The notes below the pieces were generated by a model. It was given only the letters and a program-made list of their open reading frames with translations, was not told the origin of the DNA and searched no databases. Shown here piece by piece: positions 11,621-64,000 of a stretch of DNA of 64,000 bases. Numbering within the stretch: the stretch's first letter is position 1; each line of letters opens with the position of its first letter. The position numbers and the translations under genes are program-made. Source of the stretch: Selaginella tamariscina. Its lineage: Eukaryota; Streptophyta; Lycopodiopsida; Selaginellales; Selaginellaceae. The stretch is from positions 62,001 through 126,000 of the forward strand of contig PUQB01000096.1 in NCBI GenBank assembly GCA_003024785.1, in the 5' to 3' direction.

Positions 11621-11839
11621 TGTCACGACCCGATACAAAATATAGGATTCCGGATACAGGACATGGGTTGCAGGACTTTCCTACAGGATTCCGGATACAG
11701 GATATGGGTTGCAGGATTTTCCTACAGGATATTCCTACCAGGATTCCGGACACAGGATTCGGTTGCAGGATATTCCTACAGGATATGCCACAGGATATGC
11801 CTAGAGGATAAGGGACATGTGGACTCATCTTAGCCTCTG

Positions 11840-11887
11840 CATGCATGCAAACACTTTTGCATGCATGCAACCACTTTTGCATGCATG
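11840..11887 (+). promoter_or_regulatory. Triple RY (CATGCATG) array in the U3 of copy A
   Basis: CATGCATG occurs at 11840, 11860 and 11880, exactly 20 bp apart, ending 26 bp upstream of the TATA-like box. RY words are known targets of plant B3 factors (ABI3/FUS3 type). The 3' LTR keeps most of it. Copies B and C have a different sequence here. Confidence 0.6.
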
Positions 11888-11913
11888 CCTAGATTAGCTC
11901 TTGGAGTTGTGAG

Positions 11914-11921
11914 CATAAAAG
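11914..11921 (+). promoter_or_regulatory. TATA-like box of the copy A LTR
   Basis: CATAAAAG inside GAGC...GCTC, kept in all LTRs of the family. A start about 30 bp downstream would fall at 11944-11946. Confidence 0.6.
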
Positions 11922-11944
11922 CTCCGACCTAATTGTTGTACAAT

Positions 11945-11957
11945 CAGTTACTATCAA
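11945..11957 (+). other. Predicted 5' transcript end, self-primer segment of copy A
   Basis: CAGTTACTATCAA, 29 nt downstream of the TATA-like box. It is the exact reverse complement of 12240-12252. Confidence 0.6.
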
Positions 11958-12239
11958 CACCAGTCTTACTACGATCAATTTCGTCTTGTCTTGTTCTTCT
12001 TGTTTCCTGTCCTGTTCCTGTCTCGCTCCTGTTTCCTGTCCTGCCCTGGATCCTATCCTGCTCCGGGATCCTGTCCTGTTCCTGTCTCGCTCCCGGATCC
12101 TATCCTGATCCTGTCTTGCTCTTAGATCCGTCCTGTTCCTATTCCAGTTCCTGTCCTGCTCTCGGTCCTGTTCCTGAGTCAAGCCTTCATGTCCTTGGAA
12201 TCCTGTTCCTTCCTGGTTCCTGGATCGTGGCTTGACAGT

Positions 12240-12252
12240 TTGATAGTAACTG
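12240..12252 (+). other. Putative self-complementary primer-binding site of copy A
   Basis: TTGATAGTAACTG, starting two bases after the 5' LTR. It does not begin with TGG, as a tRNA-type site would, and pairs over 13 nt without mismatch with 11945-11957. Confidence 0.6.
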
Positions 12253-15200
12253 CTTCATAGTTCTCGTTTTCCAGCTACCTTTTTCTTGATTCCTTTCCTT
12301 CATTTTCCTCCTTTTTCTTTCCTAGATCATGGCTGATTTTGAGCGTTTCAACACGAGCACCAAATGCTACTTCATGAGCTGGCCACTTTGCGCCAAGTGG
12401 TCACCGACCTGCAAGGTTCCACCACTGCGGCACATGCAGCTGCTGATGCATCCTCCAAGGCTGCTGCGCAGGCTCTCTCCCAGGCATCGGTGGTTCCCTC
12501 TTCATCAAACTTTTCTTCGGAGCCGAAGGTTAGCATGCCAGAGAAGTTCAGTGGCAATCGTGCCGATTTCCAAGGTTTCCTGAATCAGATCCGGCTCTTG
12601 ATCCGTATGCAACCACGGCGCTACTCGACTGATGCTCAAAAGGTGGGTCTTTTGGCATCCTTACTAAGTGGATCTCCACGGGCTTGGGTTGCCCCCTTGC
12701 TGGAGCGTGACGATCCATTGATGGAAGACTTTGAAGGTTTCGTGGCTGCCTTTGAAGCCTGTTTTGGAGATCCTGATAAGTACCGTTCTGCATGCACGAA
12801 GTTACGGAAGCTCACTCAAGGATCCCGACCAGCTTCCGTCTATGCATCCGAATTTCAGCAACTTTGCACGAACATTCCATGGGACGAGACTGCATTGATC
12901 GAACACTTCCGTTTTGGGTTGAGGGACGACGTGAAGGACCTTCTCCTTACGTTACCGGATGCCCAAACATTAGCGGAGATCATGCAACAAGCTGTTCGTT
13001 GCGACAACCGTTTGTTCGAGCGTCGTCAGGAAAGATCCCGTCAGCAGTTCCTGCAAACCAATCCTGCAGCTGTGGTACATGTTCCTGCACCACCTTCTGG
13101 AGTAGTTCCTATGGAGGTTGAGAAATCCAAGCGTGGCTCTCTTTCCGCTGCGAGAAGCAACGTCGTCGCAGTGAGAACCTGTGCTTGTATTGTGGTGGAG
13201 CAGGACACAAGGTGGCAGATTGTCCTATTAAAGCCAGGAACTTCAAGACGCGTGAAGTTGAAGCTGAAGTTCAGTCGGAAAACTCCAATGTCCACTTCGT
13301 CTAGGAGCCGCGAAGTTGGACGTAGGTGCAGGCTCCATTGGTGCTGCTCATACCATCCCATCACTTAAGTTTCCTGTACACATTCATCTTAATAATCGAG
13401 AGCTCATGGAGTTTGCCTTGTTAGACACTGGTGCAAATGCATGCTTCATGGATGACACGTTTGCAACTCAACATGGCATTTCGGTGGTGAAGTTGAAGCG
13501 TGCAGTTCCTGTAGAGGTGGCCGATGGGCGTCTAATTGCTTCTGGCGCGTTACCCATGCTACCGAACCTCTCTCCTGCAGTTATGGCACATTCAACTGTT
13601 CAATTTCCTTCAACTTGATCAAGACTCGGTCGACTCCCATCATTTTGGGCATGCCATGGTTCGTTGTTGCAAATCCGCAGATCGACTGGAGGTCTAGGAC
13701 GCTCACGTTTTCCTCTCCAACAGCTAGGATCAATCCTGTACCTTCCTGTGTGCAGGATACATCCTTAGTATCTGAGGCAGTACAAGCTACAGGATTGACC
13801 GCCTGTTCCTGTACCAGTGTTGAAGACTCCTCCTCACAGGATTCACCTCATATCAGTTCCTCAGCACATCTGCAGGCTCTCTTCACTCCTGTAAGTTTGC
13901 GGTGTCCTGTACAGGGTTCTTCCAATCCTGTATCAGTGTCGAAGGTTCCTCCTCAACAGGATCCACCTCCTGTTGATTCGCAGCACATTCGCAGGCTTCT
14001 TCCACTCTTGCGCAACCACGGACTCCTGTACAGGATTCTTCCAATCCTGTACACTCATCAACACCACACAGGTTTTTTCCAATCCTGCTTCTTTCTGTTA
14101 CCCTGCTTCTGTTCCATCCCCCAAGATCCTTCCTCTTTTTCAGTCACAGCTCCCTCCTTCTCCTCTCCGAGTTCTTACCACTACCATGCATGAACTCACC
14201 ACTGATCCTGCTCCCTTCCACCTTTTTGCCTTTCAAGTAACTCCTACGTCCTCTTCTACCTTTCCTGTATCCGACTCTTCTTGGACCAGTTTGTGGTGAT
14301 CTACCTCGACGACATCTTGATTTTCTCCAAGGACAGGCGGCACATGACAAGCATGTACGACTAGTTTTAGAGCGGCTTCGCGAGCAATGGCCTGTACGCG
14401 AAGTTGGAGAAGTGTTTTTTCGATAGGGATTCGGTGGAGTTCTTGGGCTACATCGTCTCTCCTGCTAGCGTTTCCATGGATATGCACAAGGTGAAGACCA
14501 TCGTGGAGTGGGAGAGGCCCAAGTCGGTACGAGATGTACAATGTTTCCTTTGGCTTTGCAAACTTCTACAGGCGGTTCATACAGGACTTCTCCAAGCGTG
14601 TACTTCCACTCACAGAACTCACCAAGCGCACAAGACGTTTCTCTTGGTCTGACAAGGCGGAACACGCGTTCACAACACTCAAGGACATTTTTCACGACAG
14701 CTCCGATTTTAGCACATCCTGACCCTCTCATCCTTTCTTCATTGAAGCAGATGCCTCGGATTTTGCAGTAGGATCCGTGCTATCGCAAGTTGGAGAGGAC
14801 AAGTTGCTTCATCCTGTAGCTTTTCACTCTCGTAAGTTCCTGTCGGCGGAGATCAACTACGAGATTCATGACAAGGAACTCAAGGCCATTGTGGATTCGT
14901 TTGAGGAGTGGCGGCATTTCCTGGAAGGCGCTGCAACATCCTGTACAAGTTCTTACGGATCACAAGAACCTGGAGTACTTTCAAACGGCTCGGGTCCTCA
15001 GTCGGCGACAGGCTAGGTGGGCAGAGTTCCTATCACGTTTTGACTTCGTCATCGTCTACAGGCCCGGCTTTCGGATGGCAAGGCGGACGCATTGTCTAGG
15101 CGCTCTTTACCTTGCACCAAGCCCGGGCGATCTTGCATTTGACGGTCAAAGGCAAAGTGTTGTTGGGTCCTGATCGTTTCCGGCTTGCGACATTGCAGGT

Positions 15201-16724
15201 TCATCAGGCTCCAGCAAATTCAACACTCCTACAGGACGTCCGTTCGCAGTTGGCTACAGACGACTTGGCAAAGAATGTGTTCTCACACATTCATCCTGAC
15301 GTTGCAAGTTCCTCTTCCTCCAGTTCCCGTCCAGACTACAACCTGTTCACCATACAGGATGGACTCCTGTACCGGGAAGGTCTCTTGTACGTTCCTGTTG
15401 GTATTTCCAGGACTCGCGTGGTACAGGATTGTCATGATACCCCGGCTACAGGACATTTTGGCGTGGCCAAGACAGTGGAGTTGGTGACTCGCAACTATTG
15501 GTGGCCGGGTTGCGAGGTTTTGTGGAGAGGTTTGTACAGAGTTGTGACACTTGTAGCAGGTCGAAGATGCCTCATCATGCACCCTCTGGTCTTCTTCGTC
15601 CTCTTCCTGTTCCGTCTGCTCCTTGGAGATCCATTTCTATGGATTTCCTCACAGATCTTTCTCCCTTCTCGTGGATTTGATGCAGTTCTTGTGGTTGTTG
15701 ACCGTTTCAACCAAGCAGGTTCATTTCCTACTCTGCAACAAGACAGCTACAGGTCAGACAACTGCCGAGTTGGTGATCCGCGCGAGGTGTTCCGACATCA
15801 TGGTCTTCCTGAGAGCATTGTTTCCGATCGAGGTCCACAATTCATGTCCAAGTTTTGGCGAGAGCTTCTTCGGAGTCTACAGGTCAAAGCAGATCTTCTT
15901 CAGGATATCACCCACAAACCGATGGGCAGTCCGAACGCACAATTCAGACCTTAGAAACAGTATCTTCGTTGCTTCATCAGTTACCAGCAGGATAACTGGT
16001 GGGACCTCCTTCCAATGGCGGAGTTTGCCTACAACAACTCCATCCACGCATCTACAGGACAAACACCCTTCTTTGCTCTTACAGGCCACCATCCACGTTT
16101 GACTTTGCTCCTCCCGCTTCTCCTTCTTCTCGCTCCTGCAGTACATGATCGTCTTCAGCATCTTCGGCAGGTACAGGATGATCTCCAGGTTCATCTTCAA
16201 AGGCACAGGAACGATACAAGCATCATGCTGATGCTCACCGTTAGCCGGCACCTGCATACAAGACTGGTGATCTCGTGTGGCTTCTTCGTCGACACATTCG
16301 CACCAACAGGCCTTCTTCTAAGTTGGATTTTCAACGATTGGGCCCTTATAGAATCGTGGCGGAGGTAAATCCTGTAGCTTTCCGACTCGAGTTACCCCAC
16401 GGTGAAACTTCATCCTGTGTTTCACACCTCTTTGTTGGAGCCGTATCATCCTTCTTCTCTTCCCGGTCGTGTTTCTTCTCCTCCCCCTCCTGTGGTCATT
16501 GACACGGAACCTGAGTACGAAGTCGCAGCCATCCTTGACTCTCGTCTTCATCGTCACCAACTCCAATACTTGGTGGATTGGAAAGGGTACCTGCCTACTG
16601 ATCGCACTTGGGAACCTGCATCCAACTTACTCCATAATTCTTCCAAGGTTGCTGCCTTCCATCGGCATTATCCTGCTAAACCAGGTCCCAAGACTCATGG
16701 AACTCGTCTTTAGGGAGGAGGTGC

Positions 16725-17346
16725 TGTCACGATCCGATACAGAATACATGATTCCGGATACAGGACATGGGTTGCAGGACTTTCCTACAGGATTTTGGAT
16801 ACAGGATATGGGTTGCAGGATTTTCCTACAGGATATTCCTACCAGGATTCCATACACAGGATTCGGTTGCAGGATATTCCTACAGGATATGCCACAGGAT
16901 ATGCCTAGAGGATAAGGGACATGTGGACTCATCTTAGCCTCTGCATGCATGCAAACACTCTTGTATGCATGCAACCACTTTTGCATGCATGCCTAGATTA
17001 GCTCTTGGAGTTGTGAGCATAAAAGCTCCGACCTAATTGTTGTACAATCAGTTACTATCAACACCAGTCTTACTACAATCAATTTCGTCTTGTCTTGTTC
17101 TCGTCTTATTTCCTGTCCTGTTCCTGTCTCGCTCCTGTTTCCTGTCCTGCCCCTGGATCCTATCCTGCTCCGGGATCCTGTCCTGTTCCTGTCTCGCTCC
17201 CGGATCCTATCCTGATCCTGTCTTGCTCTTAGATCCGTCCTGTTCCTATTTCCAGTTCCTGTCCTGCTCTCGGTCCTGTTCCTGAGTCAGGCCTTCCTGT
17301 CCTTGGAATCCTGTTCCCTTCCTGGTTCCTGGATCGTGGCTTGACA
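16725..17346 (+). repeat. 3' LTR, chromovirus copy A
   Basis: Partner of 11621-12237, preceded by a purine-rich tract. Confidence 0.93.
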
Positions 17347-18555: not shown

Positions 18556-19057
18556 TGTCAAAGCCACGATCCAGGAACCAGGAAGCAAGTAGGATTCCGA
18601 GAACAGGAAGGCTTGACTCAGGAACAGGACCGAGAGCAGGACAGGAACTAGGAACAGGAACAGGACGGATCCAAGAACAAGACAGGATCCGGGAGCAAGA
18701 CAGGAGCAGGAGGCAAAGAGTAAGACAAGAACAAGACAAGAACAAGGAACAAGAATAATCGTAGAATGACTGGTGTTGATTGTAACTGATTGTACAACAA
18801 TTAGGTCGGAGCTTTTATGCTCACAACTCCAAGCTAATCTGGTCATGAGCCTAATCTAGTCACTAGCCAAAATTGGTCATCCTTATCCTATAGGAATATC
18901 CTGTAGGAATATCCTGCGGGAATATCCGTGAGAATATCCTGCGGAATATCCTGTGGCATATCCTGTGGGAATATCCTGCGGGCCGAAATCCTGTATCGCA
19001 TATCCTGTAGGCTGAATCCTGTATGTCGTATCCTGTATCCTGTATCGGGTCGTGACA
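18556..19057 (-). repeat. 3' LTR, chromovirus copy B
   Basis: Partner of 24137-24651; the inner edge is followed by GCACCTCCTCCC, the complement of the polypurine tract. Confidence 0.93.
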
Positions 19058-22000
19058 GCACCTCCTCCCTAAGGACGAGTTCCACGAGTCTTGGGACCTG
19101 GTTTAGCAGGATAACGCCGATGGAAGCAGCAACTTTGGAAGAAGCATGGAGTAAGTTGGATGCAGGTTCCCAAGTGCGATCGGTAGGCAAATAACCTTTC
19201 CAATCCACCAAGTATTGAAGTTGACGACGATGAAGACGAGAATCAAGGATGGCTGCAACTTCGTACTCAGGTTCACCAGCAATGACCACAGGAGGGGGAG
19301 GAGAAGAAGCACGACCAGGAAGAGAAGAAGGATGATACGGCTCCAACAAGGAGGTGTGAAACACAGGATGAAGTTTCACCGTAGGTGGTAACTCGAGTCG
19401 GAAAGCTACAGGATTTACCTCCGCCACGATCATGTAAGGGCCCAATCGTTGAAAATCCAACTTAGAAGAAGGCCTGTTGGTGCGAATGTGTCGACGAAGA
19501 AGCCACACGAGATCACCAATCTTGTATGCAGGTGCCGGTTGACGGTGAGCATCAGCATGATGCTTGTACCGTTCCTGTGCCTGCTGAAGGTGAACCTGGA
19601 GATCATCCTGTACCTGCCGAAGATGCTGAAGACGATCCTGTACTGCAGGAGCGGAAGAAGGAGAAGCAGGAGAGCAAAGTCAAAACGTGGATGGTGGCCT
19701 GTAAGAGCAAAGAAAGGTGTCTGGCCTGTAGATGCGTGAATGGAGTTGTTGTAGGCAAACTCCGCCATAGGAAGAAGGTCCAACCAATTATCCTGTTGGT
19801 AACTGATGAAGCAACGAAGATATTGCTCCAAGGTCTGGATTGTGCGTTCTGACTGTCCATCAGTTTGCGGGTGATATCCTGAAGAAAGATCCGCTTTAAC
19901 CTGTAGACTCCGAAGAAGCTCTCGCCAAAACTTGGACATGAATTGTGGACCTCGATCGGAAACAATGCTCTCAGGAAGACCATGATGTCGGAACACCTCA
20001 CGGATCACCAATCGGCAGTTGTCTGACCTGTAGCTGTCTTGTTGCAGGGTAGGAAATGAGCCTGCTTGGTGAAACGGTCAACCACCACAAGAACTGCATC
20101 GAATCCACGAGAAGGAGGAAGATCTGTGAGGAAATCCATAGAAATGGATCTCCAAGGAGTAGAAGGAACAGGAAGAGGACGAAGAAGACCAGAAGGTGCA
20201 TGACGAGGCATCTTCGACCTGTTGCAGGTGTCACAACTCCGTACAAACCTTTCCACAAAACCCGCAACCCAGGCCACCAATAGTTGCGAGTCACCAACTC
20301 AACTGTCTTGGCCACACCAAAATGTCCTGTAGCCGGGTATCATGACAATCCTGTACCACACGAGTCCTGCAAACACCAACAGGAACGTACAGGAGACCTT
20401 CCCGGTACAGGAGTCCATCCTGTATGGTGAACAGGTTGTAGTCTGGACGGGAACTGGAGGAAGAGGAACTTGCAACGTCAGGATGAATGTGTGAGAACAC
20501 ATTCTTTGCCAAGTCGTCTGTAGCCAACTGCGAACGGACGTCTTGTAGGAGAGTTGAATTTGCTGGAGCCTGATGAACCTGCAGTGCCGCAAGCCGGAAT
20601 CGATCAGGACCCAACAACACTTGCCTTTGACAGTCAAATGCAGGATCGCCCGGGCTTGGTGCAAGGTAGAGCGCCTAGACAATGCGTCCGCCTTGCCATT
20701 CCGAAAACCGGGCCTGTAGACGATGACGAAGTCAAAACGTGATAGGAACTCCGCCCACCTAGCCTGTCGCCGACTGAGAACTCGAGCCGTTTGAAAGTAC
20801 TCCAGGTTCTTGTGATCCGTAAGAACTTGTACAGGATGTGCAGCACCTTCCAGGAAATGCCGCCACTCCTCAAACGAATCCACAATGGCCTTGAGTTCCT
20901 TGTCATGAATCTCGTAATTGATCTCCGCCGACAGGAATTACGAGAGTGAAAAGCTACAGGATGAAGCAACTTGTCCTCTCCAACTTGCGATAGGACGGAT
21001 CCTACTGCAAAATCCGAGGCATCTGCTTCAACGAAGAAAGGACGAGAAGGATCAGGATGTGCTAAAATCGGAGCTGTCGTGAAGGTGTCCTTGAGTGTTG
21101 TGAATGCATGTTCCGCCTTGTCGGACCAAGAGAAAACCTCTGTGCGCTTGGTGAGTTCCGTGAGTGGAAGTACACGCTTGGAGAAGTCCTGTATGAATCG
21201 CCTGTAGAAGTTTGCAAAGCCAAGGAAACATTGTACATCTCGTACAGACTTGGGCCTCTCCCACTCCACGATGGTCTTCACCTTGTGCATGTCCATGGAA
21301 ACGCCAGCAGGAGAGACGATGTAGCCCAAGAACTCCACAGAATCCCTATCGAAAAAACACTTCTCCAACTTCGCATACAAGCCATGCTCACGAAGCCGCT
21401 GTAGAACCAACCGTACATGCTTGTCATGTGCCGCCTGGTCCTTGGAGAAAATCAAAATGTCGTCGAGGTAGATCACCACAAACTGGTCCAAGAAGTCACG
21501 AAAGATGTCGTTCACCATATGTTGGAACACGGCTGGGGCATTGGTAAGGCCGAAAGGCATCACCGTGTACTCGAAGTGTCCATACCTTGTACGAAAGGCA
21601 GTCTTCCACTCATCGCCGGACGAATCCGTACAAGGTTGTAGGCCCCTCGTAAGTCGATCTTCGTGAACACCTTTGCTCCTCGCAGCCGATCGAGAAGTTC
21701 CGGGATCAATGGCAACGGGTACCGATTCCGAATGGTAGCTTGATTCAAACCCCTGTAGTCCACAACCAAACGTAAGCTCCCATCCTTCTTCTTGACAAAG
21801 AAGATTGGCGCTCCTGCAGGGGACTTTGAGTGACGAATGAAGCCGGATGCCAAGTTGTCCTCGATGTATGGCGAAGAACCTCCAACTCTGTGGGTGACAA
21901 TGCGTAAATCGGTCCGAACGGTGGGTCTTTCCTTCTGCAAGATCAATAGGACAGTCGTAGGACCTGTGAACAGGAAGAACTGTAGCCTTGTGCTTGTCAA

Positions 22001-24136
22001 AAACGTCCTTAAAGTCGTGGTACTTGGATGGTAGAGAAGAAGGAGGAGAAGGAGAAGGAGTAGGTGAAGGAGATTGAAAAACAGGAGAGTCAGACACAGG
22101 AAAGGTAGAAGAGGACGTAGGAGTTACTTGAAAGGCAAAAAGGTGGAAAGGAGCAGGATCAGTGGTAAGTTCATGCATGGTAGTGGTAAGAACTCGGAGA
22201 GGAGCAGGAGGAGCTGTGATTGAAAAAGAGGAAGGATCTTGGGGGGTGGAATAGAAACAGAGTAATGAAAAGAAGCAGGATTGGAAGAAACAGATGTGGA
22301 TGTTGACAAGTGTACAGGATTGGAAGAATCCTGTACAGAAGTCCGTGGATGCACAGGAGTGAGGGAGCCTGTGAATGTGCTGATGATCAACAGGAGGTGG
22401 ATCCTGTTGAGGAGGAACCTTCGACACTGATACAGGATTGGAAGAACCCTGTACAGGACACCGCAAACTTACAGGAGTGGAGAAAGCCTGCGGATGTGCT
22501 GAGGAACTGACATGAGGTGAATCCTGTCGAGCAGGAGTCTTCAACACTGGTACAGGAACAGGCACGGTCAATCCTGTAGCTTGTACTGCCTCAGACACCA
22601 AGGATGTATCCTGCACGCAGGAAGGTACAGGGTTGATCCTGGCTGTTGGAGAGGAAAACGTGAGCGTCCTAGACCTCCAGTCGATCTGCGGATTTGCAAC
22701 AACGAACCATGGCATGCCAAAAATGATGGGAGTCGACCGAGTCTTGATCAAGTTGAAGGAAATCGAACAGTTGAATGCACCATGATTGCAAGAGAGAGGT
22801 GTGGTAGCGTGGGTAACTGCGCCAGAAGCAATCAAACGACCATCGGCCACCTCTACAGGAATTGCATGCTTCAACTTCACCACCGGAATGCCATGCTGAG
22901 CTGCAAAAGTGTCATCCATGAAACATGCATTTGCACCAGTGTCTAACAGGGCAAACTCCTTGAGCTCTCGATTATTGAGGCGAATGTGTACAGGAAACTT
23001 GAGTGATGGAATGGTATGAGCAGCACCAATGGAGCCTGCACCTACGTCCAACTTCGCGGCTCCTAGACGAAGTGGACATTGAAGTTTTCCGACTGAACTT
23101 CAGCTTCGGCTTCACGCGCTTGAACTTCCTGGCTTTATTAGGACATTCCGCCACCTTGTGTCCTGCTGCACCACAATACAAGCATAGGTTCTCACCCCGT
23201 CGACGTTGCTTCTCAGCAGTTGAAAGTGGGCCACGCTTGGAATTGTTAACCTCCATAGGAACTGCTCCAGAAGGTGTCGCAGGAACATGTGCTACGGCTA
23301 CAGGGTTGGCTGGCAGGAACTGCTGACGGAATTTTTCCTGACGGCGCTCGAACAAACGGTTGTCGCAGCGAACGGCCTGTTGCATGATCTCCGCTAACGT
23401 TTGGGCATCCGGTAACGTAAGGAGAAGGTCCTTCACGTCGTCCTCAGCCCAAAACGGAAATGTTCGATCAATGCAGTCTCGTCCCATGGAATGTTCGTGC
23501 ACAATTGCTGGAATTCGGATGCATAAACGGAAGCTGGTCTGGATCCTTGTGTGAGCCTCCGTAACTTTGTGCATGCAGAACGGTACTTATCAGGATCTCC
23601 AAAGCAGGCTTCAAAGGCAGCCACGAAACCTTCAAAGTCTTCCATCAATGGGTCGTCACGCTCCAGCAAGGGAGCAACCCAAGCTCGTGGAGATCCACTT
23701 AGTAAGGATGCCAAAAGGCCAACCTTTTGTGCATCCGTCGAGTAGCGGCGTGGTTGCATGCGGATCAAGAGCCGGATCTGATTCAGGAAACCTTGGAAAT
23801 CGGCACGGTTGCCACTGAACTTCTCTGGCATGCTGATCTTCGGCTCCGGAGAAAAGTTCGATGAAGAAGGAACCACCGATGCCTGAGAGAGAGCCTGCGC
23901 AGCAGCCTTGGAGGATGCATCAGCAGCTGCATGTGCCGCATGGGTGGAGCCTTGTAGATCGGTGACCACTTGGCGCAAAGTGGCCAGCTCATGAAGCAAC
24001 ATTTGGTGCTCGCGTTGAAAGTGCTCAAAATCAGCCATGATCGTATGAAAGAAAGAAAGGAGAAAAACGAAGGAAAAGAATCAAGGAAAAAAAAAGGTAG
24101 CTGGGAAACGAAGAGCTATGAAAGGTTACATCAAAC

Positions 24137-24651
24137 TGTCAAGCCACGATCCAGGAACCAGGAAGCAAGTAGGATTCCGAGAACAGGAAGGCTTGACTCA
24201 GGAACAGGACCGAGAGCAGGACAGGAACTAGGAACAGGAACAGGACGGATCCAAGAACAAGACAGGATCCGGGAGCAAGACAGGAGCAGGAGGCAAAGAG
24301 TAAGACAAGAACAAGACAAGAACAAGGAACAAGAATAATCGTAGAATGACTGGTGTTGATTGTAACTGATTGTACAACAATTAGGTCGGAGCTTTTATGC
24401 TCACAACTCCAAGCTAATCTGGTCATGAGCCTAATCTAGTCACTAGCCAAAATTGGTCATCCTTATCCTATAGGAATATCCTGTAGGAATATCCTGCGGG
24501 AATATCCTGCGGGAATATCCTGTGAGAATATCCTGCGGGAATATCCTGTGGCATATCCTGTGGAATATCCTGCGGGCCGAAATCCTGTATCGCATATCCT
24601 GTAGGCTGAATCCTGTATGTCGTATCCTGTATCCTGTATCGGGTCGTGACA
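24137..24651 (-). repeat. 5' LTR, chromovirus copy B
   Basis: Carries the TATA-like box (CTTTTATG on plus) and the segment at 24356-24368 (TTGATTGTAACTG on plus) that corresponds to the self-primer segment of copy A. The matching primer site just inside the LTR is at about 24125-24135 and pairs with one bulged base. Confidence 0.93.
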
Positions 24652-26608: not shown

Positions 26609-27190
26609 TGTTAAACAAGAAAAGGCTCTCTGCCTCACCTTTTCCTATTTAACCTGTTTCCTTCTCACAGACAGGAAATTTCATACAACGTACAGGAAGG
26701 CTACACCCTTTCCTTCCTCAACTCTCAATATATCTGTATATATATCAGACTTCTCCCAGTGCCACTATGACTGGTCTCCAAAGTCAAGGCAAGAAACGGA
26801 TTTTGGCTATTGCCTTGTTAGATCCATTCATTGAGAGTAGACATACACACACAAGATTCTCTAATATGCACCTTTCATTACTACATGAATACAAGAGACA
26901 AAGTGTAGAGAACTCTATCTCCTGCTGAATAACCCATGGAGACCCTTCTCTCCGGTTAGAACTTCTTATGGAGACCCTTCTGGAGACTCCTTCTCCTTTG
27001 CCCTAACTCCCCTTAACTACTCTTCCTCTCGCCACGTCATCCTTTACCTTTTCCTTTTCCTTACTCACCTTTTCCTCTCGGTAAGGATTTTCCTCCTTCA
27101 CAGCCTTTCCTTCCATGCTTACTACAGACTTTCTACCCTTATTCTCTCTACAGTAGGATGTCCTATGCTCCTAATTATTTACCTTTAACA
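26609..27190 (-). repeat. 3' LTR of the nested gag-protease element
   Basis: Partner of 30411-31086, shorter. Confidence 0.9.
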
Positions 27191-30410: not shown

Positions 30411-31086
30411 TGTTAAACAGGAAAACCGGAAACCCCACCTTTTCCTGTTAACTGGGTTTTCCTTTCTCCTAACCTTTAAGAAAGGCTACACACTTTCTTT
30501 GCATCAACTCTCCACACATATATATATCAAAACTCCTTCTCTCAAAGCCACAATGACTAGTCTCCGAAGTCAAGGGCAAGAACGGATTTTGGCTATTGCC
30601 TTGTTAGATCCATTCATTGAGAGTACACACATATACACATAAGATCTTATAATATGCACCTTTCATTACTACATGAATACAAGAGACAAAGTGTAGAGAA
30701 CCTCTATCTCCTGCTGAATAACCCATGGAGACCCTTCTCTCCTGTTAGAACTTCTTGTGGAGACCCTTTTGGAGACCCCTTCTCCTTTGCCCTAACTGCC
30801 CTTAACTACTCTTCCTCTCGCCACGTCATCCTTTACCTTTTCCTTTTCCTTACTCACCTTTTCCTTTCAGTAAGGATTTTCCTCCTTCACAGCCTTTCTT
30901 TCCTTTTCCTTACGCACCTTTTCCTCTTGGTAAGGATTTTCCTCCTTCACAGCCTTTCCTTCCATGCTTACTACAGAACTTCCTACCCTCCTTCACAGCC
31001 TTTCCTTCCATGCTTACTACAGAACTTCCTACCCTTATTCTCTCTACAGTAGGATGTCCTATGCTCCTAATATTTTACCTTTAACA
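30411..31086 (-). repeat. 5' LTR of the nested gag-protease element
   Basis: Longer than its partner. It contains internal duplicates of a CCTTTCCTTCCATGCTTACTAC stretch, each within the limit of a short tandem repeat. Confidence 0.9.
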
Positions 31087-31871: not shown

Positions 31872-32236
31872 TGTCACGTTCCAGGGATTTGAACCCCCTA
31901 CTCTGAGTAGTAGGCGTGACTTTGGACCAAAAGGCCACATTGATCAGGATGACACCTAACCACGCTCCAGACCTAGTACGTGTGTCGTGACACCACCTCC
32001 CCTCGGCCCCTTTCTCGGGTGGAACTACTGGGGATACCAGTAGGCCAGGGGAGGTCAGAATGACCACTAGCCCGGTCAAGGTGTCAACACATACTAGGGC
32101 CCCCAACCCTATTACGAGTTGCCTAGGTTTTGTTGACCTAGGTTATCCTGATCAATCTGTCACGTTCCAGGGATTTGAACCCCCTACCTCTGGAGTAGTA
32201 GGCGTGACTTTGGACCAAAAGGCCACATTGATCAGG
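31872..32236 (-). mobile_element. TRIM-like mini LTR element with tRNA-like LTR sequence
   Basis: Two direct repeats, 31872-31992 (121 bp, TGTCACG...GTGACA on either strand) and 32158-32236 (incomplete), flank about 165 bp of non-coding, GC-rich DNA. Read on minus, a purine tract (GAGGGGAGGTGG) precedes the left repeat, so that is the 3' LTR, and a putative primer site lies just inside the right one. The repeats hold A-box-like (TGGCCTTTTGG) and B-box-like (GGTTCAAATCC) Pol III words on minus. TRIMs are known plant elements with short LTRs, a primer site and a purine tract and no genes. The fit is good, but the right end is cut short by the LTR piece at 32238. Confidence 0.65.
32145..32156 (-). 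other. Putative self-complementary primer site of the mini-element
   Basis: ATCCTGATCAAT on plus, one base from the right repeat. It is the exact reverse complement of 31939-31950 inside the left repeat (the right repeat keeps the first ten bases of that segment). Confidence 0.55.
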
Positions 32237-32237
32237 C

Positions 32238-32410
32238 TGTCACAACCCGATACAGGATACAGGATGCAGGATACAGGTTTCCGGATACAGGATACAGGAT
32301 GCAGGATTTCGGATACAGGATACGGGTTACAGGATATGCATGCAGGATATTCCTACAGGATATCCTATAGGAATATCCTATAGGTATCCTGTATGTATAT
32401 CCTGTATGAC
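32238..32410 (+). repeat. Chromovirus LTR piece, inverted relative to copy C
   Basis: Begins TGTCACAACCCGATAC, the U3 start of the chromovirus LTR, on plus, and runs straight into the left LTR of copy C, which is on minus. It is nearly identical to the complement of about 32820-32990. Confidence 0.85.
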
Positions 32411-32990
32411 TGTCAAGCCACGATCCAGGAACCAGGAAACGAGTAGGATTCCGGGAACAGGAAGGCTTGACTCAGGAACAGGACCGAGAGCAGGAAGGAA
32501 CCAGGAACAGGAATAGGAACAGGACGGATCCAGGAATAGAACAGGACGGATCAGGAACAGGACGGATCCAGGAGCAGGACAGGATCAGGATAGGATCCAG
32601 GAACAAGATAGGAACTAGACAGGATCCAAGAGCAAGACAGGAGCAGGAGGCAAAGAGTAAGACAAGAACAAGACAAGACAAGGAACAAGAATAATCGTAG
32701 AATGACTGGTGTTGATAGTAACTGATTGTACAACAATTAGGTCGGAGCTTTTATGCTCACAACTCCAAGCTAATCTAGTCATGAGCTAATGAGAATAGTG
32801 TCCCTTATCCTCTAGGCATATCCTGTAGCATATCCTATAGGCATATCCTATAGGAATATCCTATAGGTATATCCTGTAGGAATATCCTGCAGGCATATCC
32901 TGTAACCCGTATCCTGTATCCGAAATCCTGCATCCTGTATCCTGTATCCGGAACCTGTATGCATCCTGTATCCTGTATCGGGTTGTGACA
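32411..32990 (-). repeat. 3' LTR, chromovirus copy C
   Basis: Partner of 38057-38630. Confidence 0.93.
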
Positions 32991-38041: not shown

Positions 38042-38054
38042 CAGTTACTATCAA
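38042..38054 (-). other. Putative self-complementary primer site of copy C
   Basis: CAGTTACTATCAA on plus, two bases from the 5' LTR edge (38057). It is the exact reverse complement of 38334-38346 in the 5' LTR. Confidence 0.6.
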
Positions 38055-38056
38055 AC

Positions 38057-38630
38057 TGTCAAGCCACGATCCAGGAACCAGGAAACGAGTAGGATTCCGG
38101 AACAGGAAGGCTTGACTCAGGAACAGGACCGAGAGCAGGACAGGAACCAGGAACAGGAATAGGAACAGGAGGATCCAGGAACAGGACGGATCCAGGAGCA
38201 GGACAGACAGGATAGGATCCAGGAACAAGATAGGAACTAGACAGGATCCAAGAGCAAGACAGGAGCAGGAGGCAAAGAGTAAGACAAGAACAAGACAAGA
38301 CAAGGAACAAGAATAATCGTAGAATGACTGGTGTTGATAGTAACTGATTGTACAACAATTAGGTCGGAGCTTTTATGCTCACAACTCCAAGCTAATCTAG
38401 TCATGAGTCTAATCTAGTCATGAGCTAAGAATAGTGTCCCTTATCCTCTAGGCATATCCTGTAGCATATCCTATAGGCATATCCTATAGGAATATCCTAT
38501 AGGTATATCCTGTAGGAATATCCTGCAGGCATATCCTGTAACCCGTATCCTGTATCCGAAATCCTGCATCCTGTATCCTGTATCCGGAAACCTGTATCCT
38601 GCATCCTGTATCCTGTATCGGGTTGTGACA
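38057..38630 (-). repeat. 5' LTR, chromovirus copy C
   Basis: Partner of 32411-32990; carries the TATA-like box and the self-primer segment 38334-38346. Confidence 0.93.
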
Positions 38631-54817: not shown

Positions 54818-55290
54818 TATATGACATCAATATTATATTTTTCCCATGTATATGATTGATCATGGTAGCAAATTCTCTCGTACCCACGTAATGAATAACG
54901 GATTGAAGTATTTACATTTTCATCAAAATAAGCATTTAAAATGGAAATTATATTTTTAAACTTTAACTATTTTTAATATATTTTATGAAAGAATAAAAAC
55001 TAAAATTTAAAATATAAGTACAATAATATATCATTTTATTGAAAATATGGTTCATTATATTCTAAGAGTAAAGATAAAGATAAATGTAAATATTTTTAAA
55101 AAAAAAATATTCAGTTTAATTTTAATCTAAAAAATATCTCTTTAGGTTTAAACCTCCGATGCTTGTTTATCATCGAGAATATTCCAGAACATTTAACCCT
55201 AATTTTAAAGTGAATATTCGAAGCATAATTGGTGGTCTATTTTTTTAATTATATAAATAGTCATATGCCTAAAGTTAAAAATTGGTCACA
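54124..55290. other. Intergenic, AT-rich
   Basis: CA microsatellite at 54787-54812. No gene recognised. Confidence 0.5.
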
Positions 55291-55815
55291 ATGGGAAGAA
55301 GCAAGATTGCTATGGAATTTATAGAGGATCCCATCAAAAGAAGGACCACGATAAAGAAACGACTCCAAGGCTTTAAAAAGAAAGCGCAAGAGTTACATAT
55401 ATTAACAGGAGCACGTATACACTTCCGAGCGCTGTACGAGGGCCACGTGTACGAGTACGATAGTGAGCTACCCGAGGAGAATAAACAAGAGGATTATATA
55501 CAACATGAAATAATAAAACGTCATGACAGGGATGGAGAAATTATACGTGGCACAGATGACAGGGATGTAGAAATTATATGTGGCTCAGAGGATTGGGATA
55601 TACATGAAGATGAAGGGGATGAGTCGGATGATGATGAGGACAGTGACATGGATTTTTTTCGATATGCGAATGCTGAGGTGGGAACCAGTGGGCAACTATA
55701 CTCATATGATGCTAATGCTGATGTGGAATTTGCTCCATCTTTTCAGCCTATTCAGAGGTACTATAGCTTTGAATATGAAGATGACGTGGATAGCTACCTG
55801 AATATTCCAGGTTAA
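55291..55815 (+). CDS. Type I (M-gamma-like) MADS-box protein
   Basis: Single-exon, about 174 residues. The MADS domain fills the first 60 or so residues: MGRSKIAMEFIEDPIKRRTT, then IKKRLQGFKKKAQELHILTG. M-gamma genes (AGL80-like) read MGR.K.....I.....R..TF.KR..GL.KK..EL..LC. Here the usual TFxKRxxGL reads TIKKRLQGF and LC reads LT. There is no K domain, as in type I genes. The tail is strongly acidic (about residues 104-125, DEGDESDDDEDSDMDFF) and could act as an activation or histone-binding surface. MGRSK is chosen over an ATG three codons upstream (55282) because the family starts there. Type I genes act mostly in female gametophyte and endosperm in flowering plants. Confidence 0.8.
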   Translation: MGRSKIAMEFIEDPIKRRTTIKKRLQGFKKKAQELHILTGARIHFRALYEGHVYEYDSELPEENKQEDYIQHEIIKRHDRDGEIIRGTDDRDVEIICGSEDWDIHEDEGDESDDDEDSDMDFFRYANAEVGTSGQLYSYDANADVEFAPSFQPIQRYYSFEYEDDVDSYLNIPG

Positions 55816-56800: not shown

Positions 56801-57431
56801 TCAGAAATGTATATAAGAGTTCTTGTTGTCAGATGGAGAGAAATCCCCCCTACCATATTCATCAAACTCCCCACTAGTGTACATACCATCAGTAACATAG
56901 TTAGCCATGTAATTCGACCCGGTAAACTGATCTAAACAATGAGCCTCCTCATTAAGCATGAACTTACCACAAATCTCTTCGTTATTCATATTTAAATACC
57001 CCTTAACCTCGTCCTCAATACAGGTTCCACTACTCCCACTAGTTCCTTCGTCTGAAAATGCGTATTCCCCATAGTGACCATCGCCAATTTTCTCACATTC
57101 CTCATATTGACCGCCATATACACCTTGATACGCTACTATACCAACTTTGTCATCGTGACCCTCGTACACACACCCTTTAGGGTTTGATACATGCAGTCCG
57201 CCAGGGCATTTCGTCGCGTGCTTACTAGGGCACTTGTTACCACTTAAAACGCCATCAATGGTTACCGCGCTTGGTAAGTTCATGGGAGTACCTGGCCTTG
57301 AACAGTAATAGTAGCTCTTCTTATCGTCAAATTTAATCGCTAGATTGACAAAGGCACCACATAAAACTTGCAGCTCAATTGCCTTCCTGAATATACCTGT
57401 ATATAATGTATTGTATATATATATATATATA

Positions 57432-57480
<49 letters not shown>

Positions 57481-57570
57481 CACACACATACCTTCAGTGC
57501 GTTTCCTGAACGTTTGAACACGCATATTCCGCTTCTCAAGGTACTTAATAGCAATTTTTTTCCTCCCCAT
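56801..57570 (-). CDS. Type I MADS-box protein with an intron inside the MADS box
   Basis: Exon 1 is 57492-57570 (MGRKKIAIKYLEKRNMRVQT then FRKRTE plus one base). The intron is 57397-57491 (95 bp, GTATGT...TACAG). Exon 2 is 56801-57396 (IFRKAIELQVLCGAFVNLAI...). The join restores a continuous MADS domain, RTEG-IFRKAIELQVLCGA, with phase 1. Total 224 residues; no K domain; long acidic Gly/Tyr/Glu-rich tail ending DNKNSYIHF. The intron holds TA and GA microsatellites. Type I MADS genes are usually intronless, so this is uncommon. It starts 184 bp from the stop codon of the ferroportin gene on the same strand. Further in-frame ATGs exist upstream (57591, 57609), but MGRKK is the family start. 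Confidence 0.82.
57403..57479. repeat. TA and GA microsatellites in the MADS intron
   Basis: TA run followed by a GA run of about 38 bp; together they fill most of the 95-bp intron. Confidence 0.9.
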
Positions 57571-57754
57571 TCTTGCCTTGGGGGCCTGCATACTAGAAGA
57601 GAAGGACAAAAGAAGTACACTAATTGGGTTAAACCCGTTTTAACTTCTTAAACCTTCTTATACAACCATTTATGGTTGAACCAAGATTCTGGGGAGATCA
57701 TTATTCCATGGAATATTATATTTCAAGCACTAAGTATGTAAATATTAACTTGGT

Positions 57755-59086
57755 TCATAACCATTTTAGCACCTTGTCAAAATGGAACAAGTGTCCACGT
57801 ACATTGTATGTATATACGGAGTATAATAACGCTGCCGTGGTTACCGAACCAAATGAAACCAGTACTAAGTCTCCGAAGTCCTAAAATAACTTAATACATC
57901 AGATACACACACACACACACATACACACACACACACACATATGAGAGAGAGTTAAACTTCTCTTATGTAACTTGAAAAGTATAATTTAAGATAAATTTTA
58001 TTAGGAAAATAAATTAGAAAATCTAAGTTTAAAGAGTAAAGATGCTTTGTAATTAAGTGTAAGTCTATCATAAATTAAATTTCTAATACAGATTTTAGCT
58101 TATATTATACATGAATTGATTCTAAAAATCAATTATTATGTTAATGTATTATGTTAATTAATAACAATAATAATTACTATGTAATACTAATGTAATGTTA
58201 CTTGTGTAAAAAATACCTGTGGACGAGAGGCAATCATAGCCATCACAAAGGAGATCATTTGCATAAATGACTGCAATGAGTTTTGCACACCACCAACAAC
58301 TCCTCGTTCACTTTCAGGAGCAGAGGACTAATAATGAATAAATAAATAATAAACTAAATAATATTAATAATATAATAAAATTAAATGTTTAAATTATATT
58401 ACCTGCATAAGCTGTGTTACGGCTAAATCAAATGACCATAATCCAAAGCGGGATAAAATGACTCCAATAATAAGCATAATTGAAGAATATACTCCATTTT
58501 TAACAAATACAGATGCAACGCAAAGTAGAAGGCAAGACCACTGTTAACAAAATTAAAACTTATTTCACTAACGTAGATGTTTAATTATTTAAAGCTAGTA
58601 TTAAATAAAAAAAGATAATATATATAATTTTTAAAATTATTTACCTGAATCCAACTTGACCATAGTCCAGTTCTAATTGTTTCAAGATATGCGTGCATTT
58701 TTGGATATATAAATGTCGCACCAACACCCACGCACGCAGACATACCGCGTGCTAAACCGATCACAAACGCTGGTACTCCTTTCCATTGCAAAGCTGCAGT
58801 CATTAAAGTACCAAAACTGCAAAAACAAATATATATATTGTTTATTATCTTTAACTAATAAAACTACAATATAAATATTTAATATCTAAATATTAAATGT
58901 TGATTTTATTATTAATTATATAATAAATGATGAATTTATTACCTTAAGATTGTAAAATAGAGGAGTGCAAGTGCAACAGCTGCCAAAAGAGTCTCCTGTT
59001 TGAAATACACAAGCCATCCTTGTTTTAAACCGAATTCTTTCTTTTGTGTCTTCAGCACGACTAGTTTCTGCATTGTGAAGTAACAC

Positions 59087-62868: not shown

Positions 62869-63035
62869 GTTTTCAGGATGCGATAGTTCTAAGAGTTGAT
62901 ATTTTCTTATATATAAACATTTAATTAATTTTATTAACGAAGAATTTATTTATATTACACGCACACGTTTGTTTGAACACGAAAGAAAAAAAAGTACACT
63001 AATTCACTTAATTGGATTAAACCCGTTTTAGCTTC

Positions 63036-63255
63036 TTAAACCTTGAACCAAGATTCTGGGGAGGCCATTATTCTTTCAAGCACTAAGTATGTAAATTTTA
63101 ACTTGGTTTCTAACCATTTTAGCACCTTGTCAAAATGGAACAAGTGTCCACGTACATTATATGTATATACGGTGTATAACAATGCTGCCATAGTTACCGA
63201 ACCAAATGAAACCAGTACTAAGTCTCCGAAGTCCTAAAAAAAACTTATATATATT

Positions 63256-63316
<61 letters not shown>

Positions 63317-64000
63317 AAAAGTTTGAATTTGTAATGTAAACTTTATTTAAAAAAATAAATTAGAAAATTTAAGTTAAAGAGCCTTTTAAATTATATGGTA
63401 AAGATGTTTGTAATTAAGAAATATTATATATGTCCGTCTAATAAAATATCTACGTTTTCAATTATAAATTAAATTTCTAATACAGTTTTTAGCTTATATT
63501 ATATAGCTTATAAAATGTAATAATTGTCAATCTGGATATAATTTATGTTAAGTCTTACTAATTATGATGTTAATTATTAATATATTATTATTATTATTAC
63601 TTATGTAAAAAATACCTGTGGACGAGAGGCAATCATAGCCATCACAAAGGAGATCATTTGCATGAATGACTGCAATGAGTTTTGCACACCACCAATAACT
63701 CCTCGTTCACTTTCAGGAGCAGAGGACTAATGATAAATAAATAAATAAATAAATAAACTCTAAATATTACTTAATTACACACATACACACATATATATGT
63801 GTATGTATGTATACATATTTAAAAATTAATTAGATTTTTAAATTATATTACCTGCATAAGCTGTGTTACGGCTAAATCAAATGACCATAATCCAAAGCGG
63901 GATAGAATGACTCCAATAATAAGCATTGTTGAAGAATATACTTCATTTTTAACAAATACAGATGCAACGCAAATTAAAAGGCAAGACCACTGTTAAAAAC
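63036..64000 (-). CDS. Ferroportin/IREG, copy 2 (3' exons only in the window)
   Basis: Tandem copy of the gene at 57755-61674. Exons 63852-63989, 63616-63726 and 63036-63233 match copy 1 exons 58403-58540, 58217-58327 and 57755-57880 closely, with the same phases and splice sites. The C-terminus differs: where copy 1 stops after KVLKWL, copy 2 reads on for 24 residues (ETKLKFTYLVLERIMASPES then WFKV) before TAA at 63036. The homology continues through the copy 1 3' flank, so copy 1 probably gained an earlier stop, or copy 2 lost one. The rest lies outside the window. Confidence 0.9.
63256..63313. repeat. TA then GA microsatellite in an intron of ferroportin copy 2
   Basis: Sits just upstream (gene sense) of the last exon. 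Copy 1 has a CA run at about 57905-57940 in the matching place, so the repeat type changed after duplication. Confidence 0.92.

Follow-up and report, generated by a model that had tools for sequence, protein, structure and literature searches.

How an LTR retrotransposon without a recognizable tRNA-type primer site could start its reverse transcription is the question raised by this locus, a 64-kb stretch of DNA (the window) in which self-BLAST and the sequence itself reveal three copies, A, B and C, of one element family. Copy A lies on the plus strand, copies B and C lie on the minus strand, and 5-bp target duplications flank A (catat) and B (gtttg). No target duplication was found at the flanks of copy C, which, with an inverted LTR fragment alongside its 3′ LTR (32236-32384), is a nested or rearranged insertion. 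The main parts of the three copies are as follows.

11621-12237, plus strand: 5′ LTR of copy A (TGTCAC...TTGACA, target duplication catat; self-BLAST, sequence and flanks)
16725-17346, plus strand: 3′ LTR of copy A (self-BLAST, sequence and flanks)
24137-24651, minus strand: 5′ LTR of copy B (target duplication gtttg; self-BLAST, sequence and flanks)
18556-19057, minus strand: 3′ LTR of copy B (self-BLAST and sequence)
38057-38630, minus strand: 5′ LTR of copy C (self-BLAST and sequence)
32411-32990, minus strand: 3′ LTR of copy C (self-BLAST and sequence)
12364-13368, plus strand: gag open reading frame of copy A (Retrotrans_gag, DUF4939 and Ty3_capsid in Pfam)
20634-23051, minus strand: piece of the pol open reading frame of copy B (protease, RT and RNase H in Pfam; frame broken elsewhere)
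16381-16713, plus strand: chromodomain segment of copy A (Pfam; Y, W and Y at the aromatic-cage positions)

Pfam recovers, in pieces, gag (with DUF4939), aspartic protease, RT, RNase H, integrase and a chromodomain, and this set of domains therefore identifies the family as a chromovirus, with pol broken in all three copies and a single open frame in none of them. The chromodomain (PF00385) is found in A, B and C and SH3_Tf2-1 in B; an integrase with a C-terminal chromodomain, a trait of the Tf1/Sushi group, is thus present. The Y, W and Y of the copy A chromodomain align with the Y, W and F/Y of chromodomains of known structure, at positions that we take to be those of the aromatic cage.

The feature that bears on priming is a pair of complementary segments, one inside the LTR and one just after it. 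In copy A, 11945-11957 (CAGTTACTATCAA) is the exact reverse complement of 12240-12252 (TTGATAGTAACTG), and in copy C, on the minus strand, 38334-38346 and 38042-38054 are likewise exact reverse complements. A preliminary description of this DNA had reported both 13-nt pairs, and both hold; it had placed the site two bases inside the 5′ LTR, which is wrong, as LTR A spans 11621-12237 and the site starts 2 nt downstream of its end. With the mRNA 5′ end judged from TATA spacing, position +1 of copy A is likely A11946, 32 nt past the first base (11914) of the TATA-like box CATAAAAG, and the primer is therefore taken to be 12 nt long. Across the 51 of 60 copies from the same genome that align without gaps, this box is conserved at 82-100% per base.

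11914-11921, plus strand: TATA-like box CATAAAAG of copy A (sequence)
11946-11957, plus strand: putative self-primer AGTTACTATCAA of copy A, probable RNA positions +1 to +12 (C11945 also pairs)
12240-12251, plus strand: putative primer-binding site TTGATAGTAACT of copy A, 2 nt after the LTR (G12252 pairs with C11945)
38334-38345, minus strand: putative self-primer AGTTACTATCAA of copy C (sequence and fold)
38043-38054, minus strand: putative primer-binding site TTGATAGTAACT of copy C (sequence and fold)
24356-24367, minus strand: putative self-primer segment AGTTACAATCAA of copy B (T-to-A variant)
24125-24134, minus strand: decayed primer-binding site TTGATGTAAC of copy B (sequence)

When each LTR was compared with the 20 nt that follow it, none of 5,000 dinucleotide shuffles per LTR reached a 13-nt complement for A or for C, and a chance origin of the pair in these two copies is rejected. 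Copy B is the exception: both of its LTRs read CAGTTACAATCAA, its primer site reads TTGATGTAACC, the exact pair is lost, and its longest exact complement of 6 nt is at chance level (3,141 of 5,000 shuffles). A helix of 10 bp with one bulged base remains in this copy.

Minimum free energy folds of the probable RNA 5′ ends place the primer/site helix in all three copies, where it is the closing helix. It is adjoined by a U5-terminal stem, GTCAAGCC with GGCTTGAC in copy A, and the 5′ arm of this stem (AGTCAAGCC) recurs with at most one substitution in 55 of the 60 copies from the same genome.

12178-12185, plus strand: 5′ arm GTCAAGCC of the predicted U5-terminal stem (minimum free energy fold)
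12229-12236, plus strand: 3′ arm GGCTTGAC of the predicted U5-terminal stem, abutting the LTR end (minimum free energy fold)

Relative to shuffled sequences, the folds have z-scores of −2.3 (A), −3.5 (B) and −2.0 (C), with 3 of 100, 0 of 100 and 5 of 200 shuffles, respectively, folding equally well. As the U5-terminal stem stands beside the primer helix, the layout resembles that of Tf1; according to Lin and Levin in 1998, a U5-IR-like structure is reportedly needed by a self-primed element.

Whether the two segments change together is where the family itself is informative. In the assembly (300.7 Mb, 1,391 contigs), the junction pattern GGCTTGACAGTTTG has 1,832 matches and its reversed control none; 60 of 100 listed places were taken by hand, mostly on longer contigs. 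In these, per-base conservation over ungapped columns is 90-100% for the 12-nt site, its first three bases being fixed by the pattern, and 78 and 85% for the two bases after it. Two of the 60 (L182 and L196) combine an A for T in the LTR segment with a T for A in the site. The variant site GACAGTTTGATTGTAAC has 66 matches in the assembly, from which 40 further junctions were added to give 100, all selected by patterns in which part of the site is preset; 7 were set aside because no 12-13-nt primer could be read between their flanking words, and 93 were scored. Their LTR/site states are T-A in 52, A-T in 36, T-T in 4 and A-A in 1 (Fisher 4e-20), which leaves 5 of 93 uncompensated; among the first 60 alone (56 scored) the counts are 52, 2, 1 and 1.

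Because the copies share ancestry, a tree was built from R-U5 and the leader with both paired segments left out. Of the independent tip pairs that differ at the site, 7 of 11 also differ matchingly in the LTR and 4 do not, whereas among control pairs with the same site state 0 of 37 differ in the LTR (p 4.5e-6). An earlier run with 79 copies gave 9 parsimony changes at the LTR position and 11 at the site position. The covariation that the preliminary description had proposed to look for between LTR and site is thus borne out. The R-U5 stretch used for the tree is flanked by the two segments; a simple recombination event would seldom transfer both of them and spare the middle, and copying of the primer into the site, as self-priming implies, would achieve this in a single step.

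The base just after the 12-nt site (site base 13) is G in 64, C in 26 and T in 3 of the 93 junctions. C is usual at LTR position −1, and pairing ends at or near the probable +1 in about one third of the copies. A reading of site base 13 as a cap-templated C was dropped, as this base varies between G, C and T.

A second line of evidence comes from relatives of the element. A profile search of prokaryote genome records returned 27 loci, which we take for eukaryotic contaminants; 11 of them come from a single Trichormus bin (ERR2144891) and L123 comes from another bin. Trichormus (Nostoc) azollae is a symbiont of the fern Azolla, an Azolla metagenome study exists (PMC5901025), and the Trichormus-bin loci may, we assume, be Azolla DNA. 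The stretch before gag was inspected in 13 of the 27 loci, 8 near and 5 distant. The 5′ region is readable in all eight near loci, and seven of these have an exact pair at the same place but with different letters.

L121: primer ACTCTTGATCAA, exact pair
L123: primer CAGTCTCGACAA, exact pair
L124, L126, L135 and L145: primer AAGGCGAACAA, exact pair
L128: primer AAGGTGAACAA, exact pair

The relatives thus hold four further primers, ACTCTTGATCAA, AGTCTCGACAA, AAGGCGAACAA and AAGGTGAACAA, and in every case the exact complement stands downstream of the LTR; in the eighth near locus, L127, the pair matches in part only. No pair was seen in the five distant loci: L130 and L136 have only AT-rich repeats of 9-11 nt, L138 and L142 have nothing, and L139 offers only 66 nt of upstream sequence. 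In all seven paired relatives TGACAG (TAACAG in L145) and one further base precede the site, and CAA closes the primer; CACCAGT or CACAAGT comes next in six of them (not in L123). From the first base of the TATA box to the probable +1 there are 32 nt in A, in C and in six of the seven, and 33 in L121. Over nine short sequences, two of them from the window element's own genome, 95.4% of cells pair, against 27-50% in slid controls, and 9 of the 12 pairs show changes in both partners. Searching for inverted repeats was the way in which the relatives' pairs were located, and this biases the set towards pairing; no such selection applied to their place beside the LTR end or to the TATA spacing. The pair, its position and its covariation are directly observed.

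Some relatives also have a third segment complementary to the primer, in the promoter between the TATA box and the probable +1 (L124, L126, L128, L135, L145, the 3′ copy of L127, and L123). It forms stems of 9 nt, a length reached in at most 13 of 2,000 shuffles, makes a strong palindrome across the start site, and its letters track those of the primer; it is absent from the window family and from L121.

Several sources other than the element's own RNA could in principle supply the primer. The usual chromovirus mode is a tRNA 3′ end, in which case the LTR complement would be a by-product, and most plant chromoviruses are reported as tRNA-Met users in the portion of the literature consulted here (PMC6317226). 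The mark of the tRNA-primed plant lineages (Tekay, Reina, CRM and Galadriel) is a site that begins with TGG and complements a tRNA 3′ end. The window family does not have it: as the preliminary description had noted, its site lacks a TGG start, and in all three copies the 25 nt next to the LTR hold no TGG such as a tRNA-type site requires. An unrelated LTR element in the same window serves as a control, with a TGG-type site, TTTGGCAACCACGG, at that place.

26694-27114 and 30479-30903, minus strand: LTRs of element D (TGTTAA...TTTAACA), with a CCHC zinc knuckle open reading frame between them

The missing TGG in A, B and C, set against TTTGGCAACC in element D, leaves a tRNA primer without its CCA complement and so already largely refutes it. 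The count of TGG in the 60 copies from the same genome, 0, is worthless here because the junction pattern fixes those bases. Site letters, moreover, differ between families and yet complement the family's own LTR in seven of eight near relatives, so that we reject tRNA priming as extremely improbable. Equally improbable is priming by a half-tRNA produced by cleavage, or by some other small RNA of the host with a fortuitous likeness to the LTR segment. Half-tRNA priming has a precedent in plant Ty1/copia elements, in the portion of that survey considered (PMC6317226), but a host RNA would not change in step with a point mutation in this family's own LTR, or with the four additional primers found in the relatives, and it is rejected on covariation both within the family and between families.

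A subtler alternative accepts the pairing and denies the priming: the pair could be a stem in the RNA leader with a role in structure or packaging. Covariation and folding do demonstrate pairing rather than priming, and the fold also contains the U5-terminal stem. Against this, the minus strand has to begin just where one arm stands, 2 nt downstream of the LTR; the other arm lies at the probable +1, no tRNA-type site is visible, and Tf1 and Tj1 are reported to self-prime with the same layout (PMC4600332, as far as the excerpted text goes). We consider a purely structural stem very unlikely. The best explanation, in which we have high confidence, is that the family is a Tf1/Sushi-type Ty3/gypsy chromovirus, present in high copy number, with self-primed reverse transcription. 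That the RNA 5′ end would fold back to prime, in the manner of Tf1 and sushi-type elements, as the preliminary description had proposed, is strongly supported by covariation within and between families and by the fixed TATA spacing.

Modelled on Tf1, transcript start, cleavage, priming and rewriting would proceed as follows. Transcription would start at A11946, 32 nt after the TATA-like box, and the first 12 nt of the RNA, AGTTACTATCAA, would anneal to the site that starts 2 nt downstream of U5, next to the U5-terminal stem. RNase H would then cut the RNA after its CAA and before the conserved CACCAGT, and the new 3′ end would prime minus-strand synthesis into U5, giving a minus-strand strong-stop product in which RNA AGTTACTATCAA is joined to DNA ACTGTCAAGCC. 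The plus strand would later copy the attached primer and thereby rewrite the primer site, which would keep both segments matched. For Tf1, RNase H cleavage and a U5-IR-like structure have reportedly been demonstrated by experiment, in work by Levin in 1996 and by Lin and Levin in 1997 and 1998.

Some copies may hold by-products of such a process. In one of the first 60 junctions (L172, also L236), the site runs on into the reverse complement of U3. A search pattern for such fold-backs has 23 matches and its control none; of the 21 inspected, six are true fold-backs (L172, L258, L267, L270, L272 and L275), all joined at the primer/site pair, and the remaining 15 are normal LTRs seen on the opposite strand, in which the base adjoining the primer varies. 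The six consist of U5 and the site, after which the LTR continues in inverted orientation for 31 to about 337 nt, from primer position 12 onwards; in L275 the inverted part, with a gap, continues into the 3′ internal end. They are possible by-products of self-priming, through extension of a 5′-extended primer or of the primer's 3′ R copy. Alternatively, they could reflect DNA-level template switching at the 12-nt inverted repeat, with no bearing on priming: any such inverted repeat can seed a fold-back, and the junction is not placeable within the 12 nt. This would leave the existence, positions and covariation of the pair unexplained, and we regard it as very unlikely. More tentatively, and with somewhat less than even confidence, we suggest that the genome holds a record of rewriting: as every cycle would copy primer RNA into the new site, a mutation of the LTR primer would carry the site with it and the double change would appear on different R-U5 backgrounds, with the rare fold-backs as captured by-products. 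If true, self-priming could be recognized from genomic fossils of this kind, with no experiment needed.

The placement of the family among known elements is compatible with this mechanism, although the RT tree supports it less firmly than covariation and TATA spacing do. In the RT tree (50 rows, none of them Tf1 or a named Sushi reference), the window element groups with metagenome proteins and two loci of the Trichormus bin (96/85), and a wider group takes in frog proteins (82/81, not starred). The window group stands apart from the chromoviruses of Tanacetum and Closterium (98/96). Its RT is 52-62% identical to three frog proteins (alignments of 227-228 columns), which we take to be of the Sushi type; this identity and the joint group with support 82/81 are the points of likeness to Sushi-type vertebrate elements. 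In the gag tree the window element is on a long branch and its placement is unsure. Among the 120 best of 140 matches in the gag search, the named organisms are the fern Ceratopteris richardii and the fungi Cetraspora, Racocetra and Dentiscutata, the last three presumably Gigasporaceae, and many other matches score higher. A protein scan of viral_contigs found no relative; a 15-mer scan gave matches there, with a word so short that it matches widely.

The mechanism itself is not new, being known from yeast and vertebrate relatives. Self-priming has been described for the Tf1/Sushi group (PMC6317226, portion consulted), and hairpin priming is used by some chromoviruses (PMC3601003, in the excerpt used). 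Closest in layout are Tf1 of Schizosaccharomyces pombe and Tj1 of S. japonicus, whose primer site is complementary to the 5′ end of the element's own mRNA; Tj1, which transposes, has the same arrangement of primer-binding site and self-primer as here (PMC4600332, excerpted text). These belong to another host kingdom, and the present family is known from sequence alone.

The preliminary description was probably right about the mechanism and wrong that no plant family with it had been described. Neumann et al. (2019; PMC6317226), in the portion of their survey considered here, had already put forward self-priming as a prediction for most members of the plant Tcn1 clade, in mosses and club-mosses; they also predicted it for the TAR lineage of Ty1/copia (Houba, Osr-1), plant elements likewise but of another superfamily. 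The same text has Tcn1 elements clustering with Tf1/Sushi and gives an aromatic cage for 95% of plant Tcn1 elements, found among plant chromoviruses in non-seed plants only. Compared by description rather than in a tree, the present family resembles this clade (as named in REXdb) in being a chromovirus with an aromatic-cage chromodomain, no tRNA-type site, predicted self-priming and Tf1/Sushi kinship (PMC6317226), and differs in that it adds natural compensatory changes. Novikova et al. (2010; PMC2864245, in the excerpt consulted) found support for neither mode, tRNA-primed or self-primed, in SM-Tcn1.

In the sources covered, self-priming of plant chromoviruses has so far been a prediction from complementarity, with the explicit negative report for SM-Tcn1, and among the papers brought up by searches on self-priming retrotransposons no title or abstract opening mentions compensatory changes in a plant family. 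Natural double changes, in a family with more than 1,000 junction matches, are strong comparative evidence for self-priming in a plant genome, and the family supplies a test set for it.

Elsewhere in the window, ARAGORN and Rfam gave no match. An ELF3-like motif and a UGT-like fragment are present in our estimation, and Pfam returned no family for either piece. The other genes comprise a ferroportin fragment and two MADS-box (SRF-TF) genes, at 55279-55809 (plus strand), above the Pfam cut-off, and at 56807-57493 (minus strand), below it; with such plant-like genes in the window, a land plant is the probable host. A protein search with the first MADS protein gave 18 candidates, none at E ≤ 0.001. 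Beside these genes lies a stretch of about 1 kb that is repeated, at 57621-58550 and 63009-63999.
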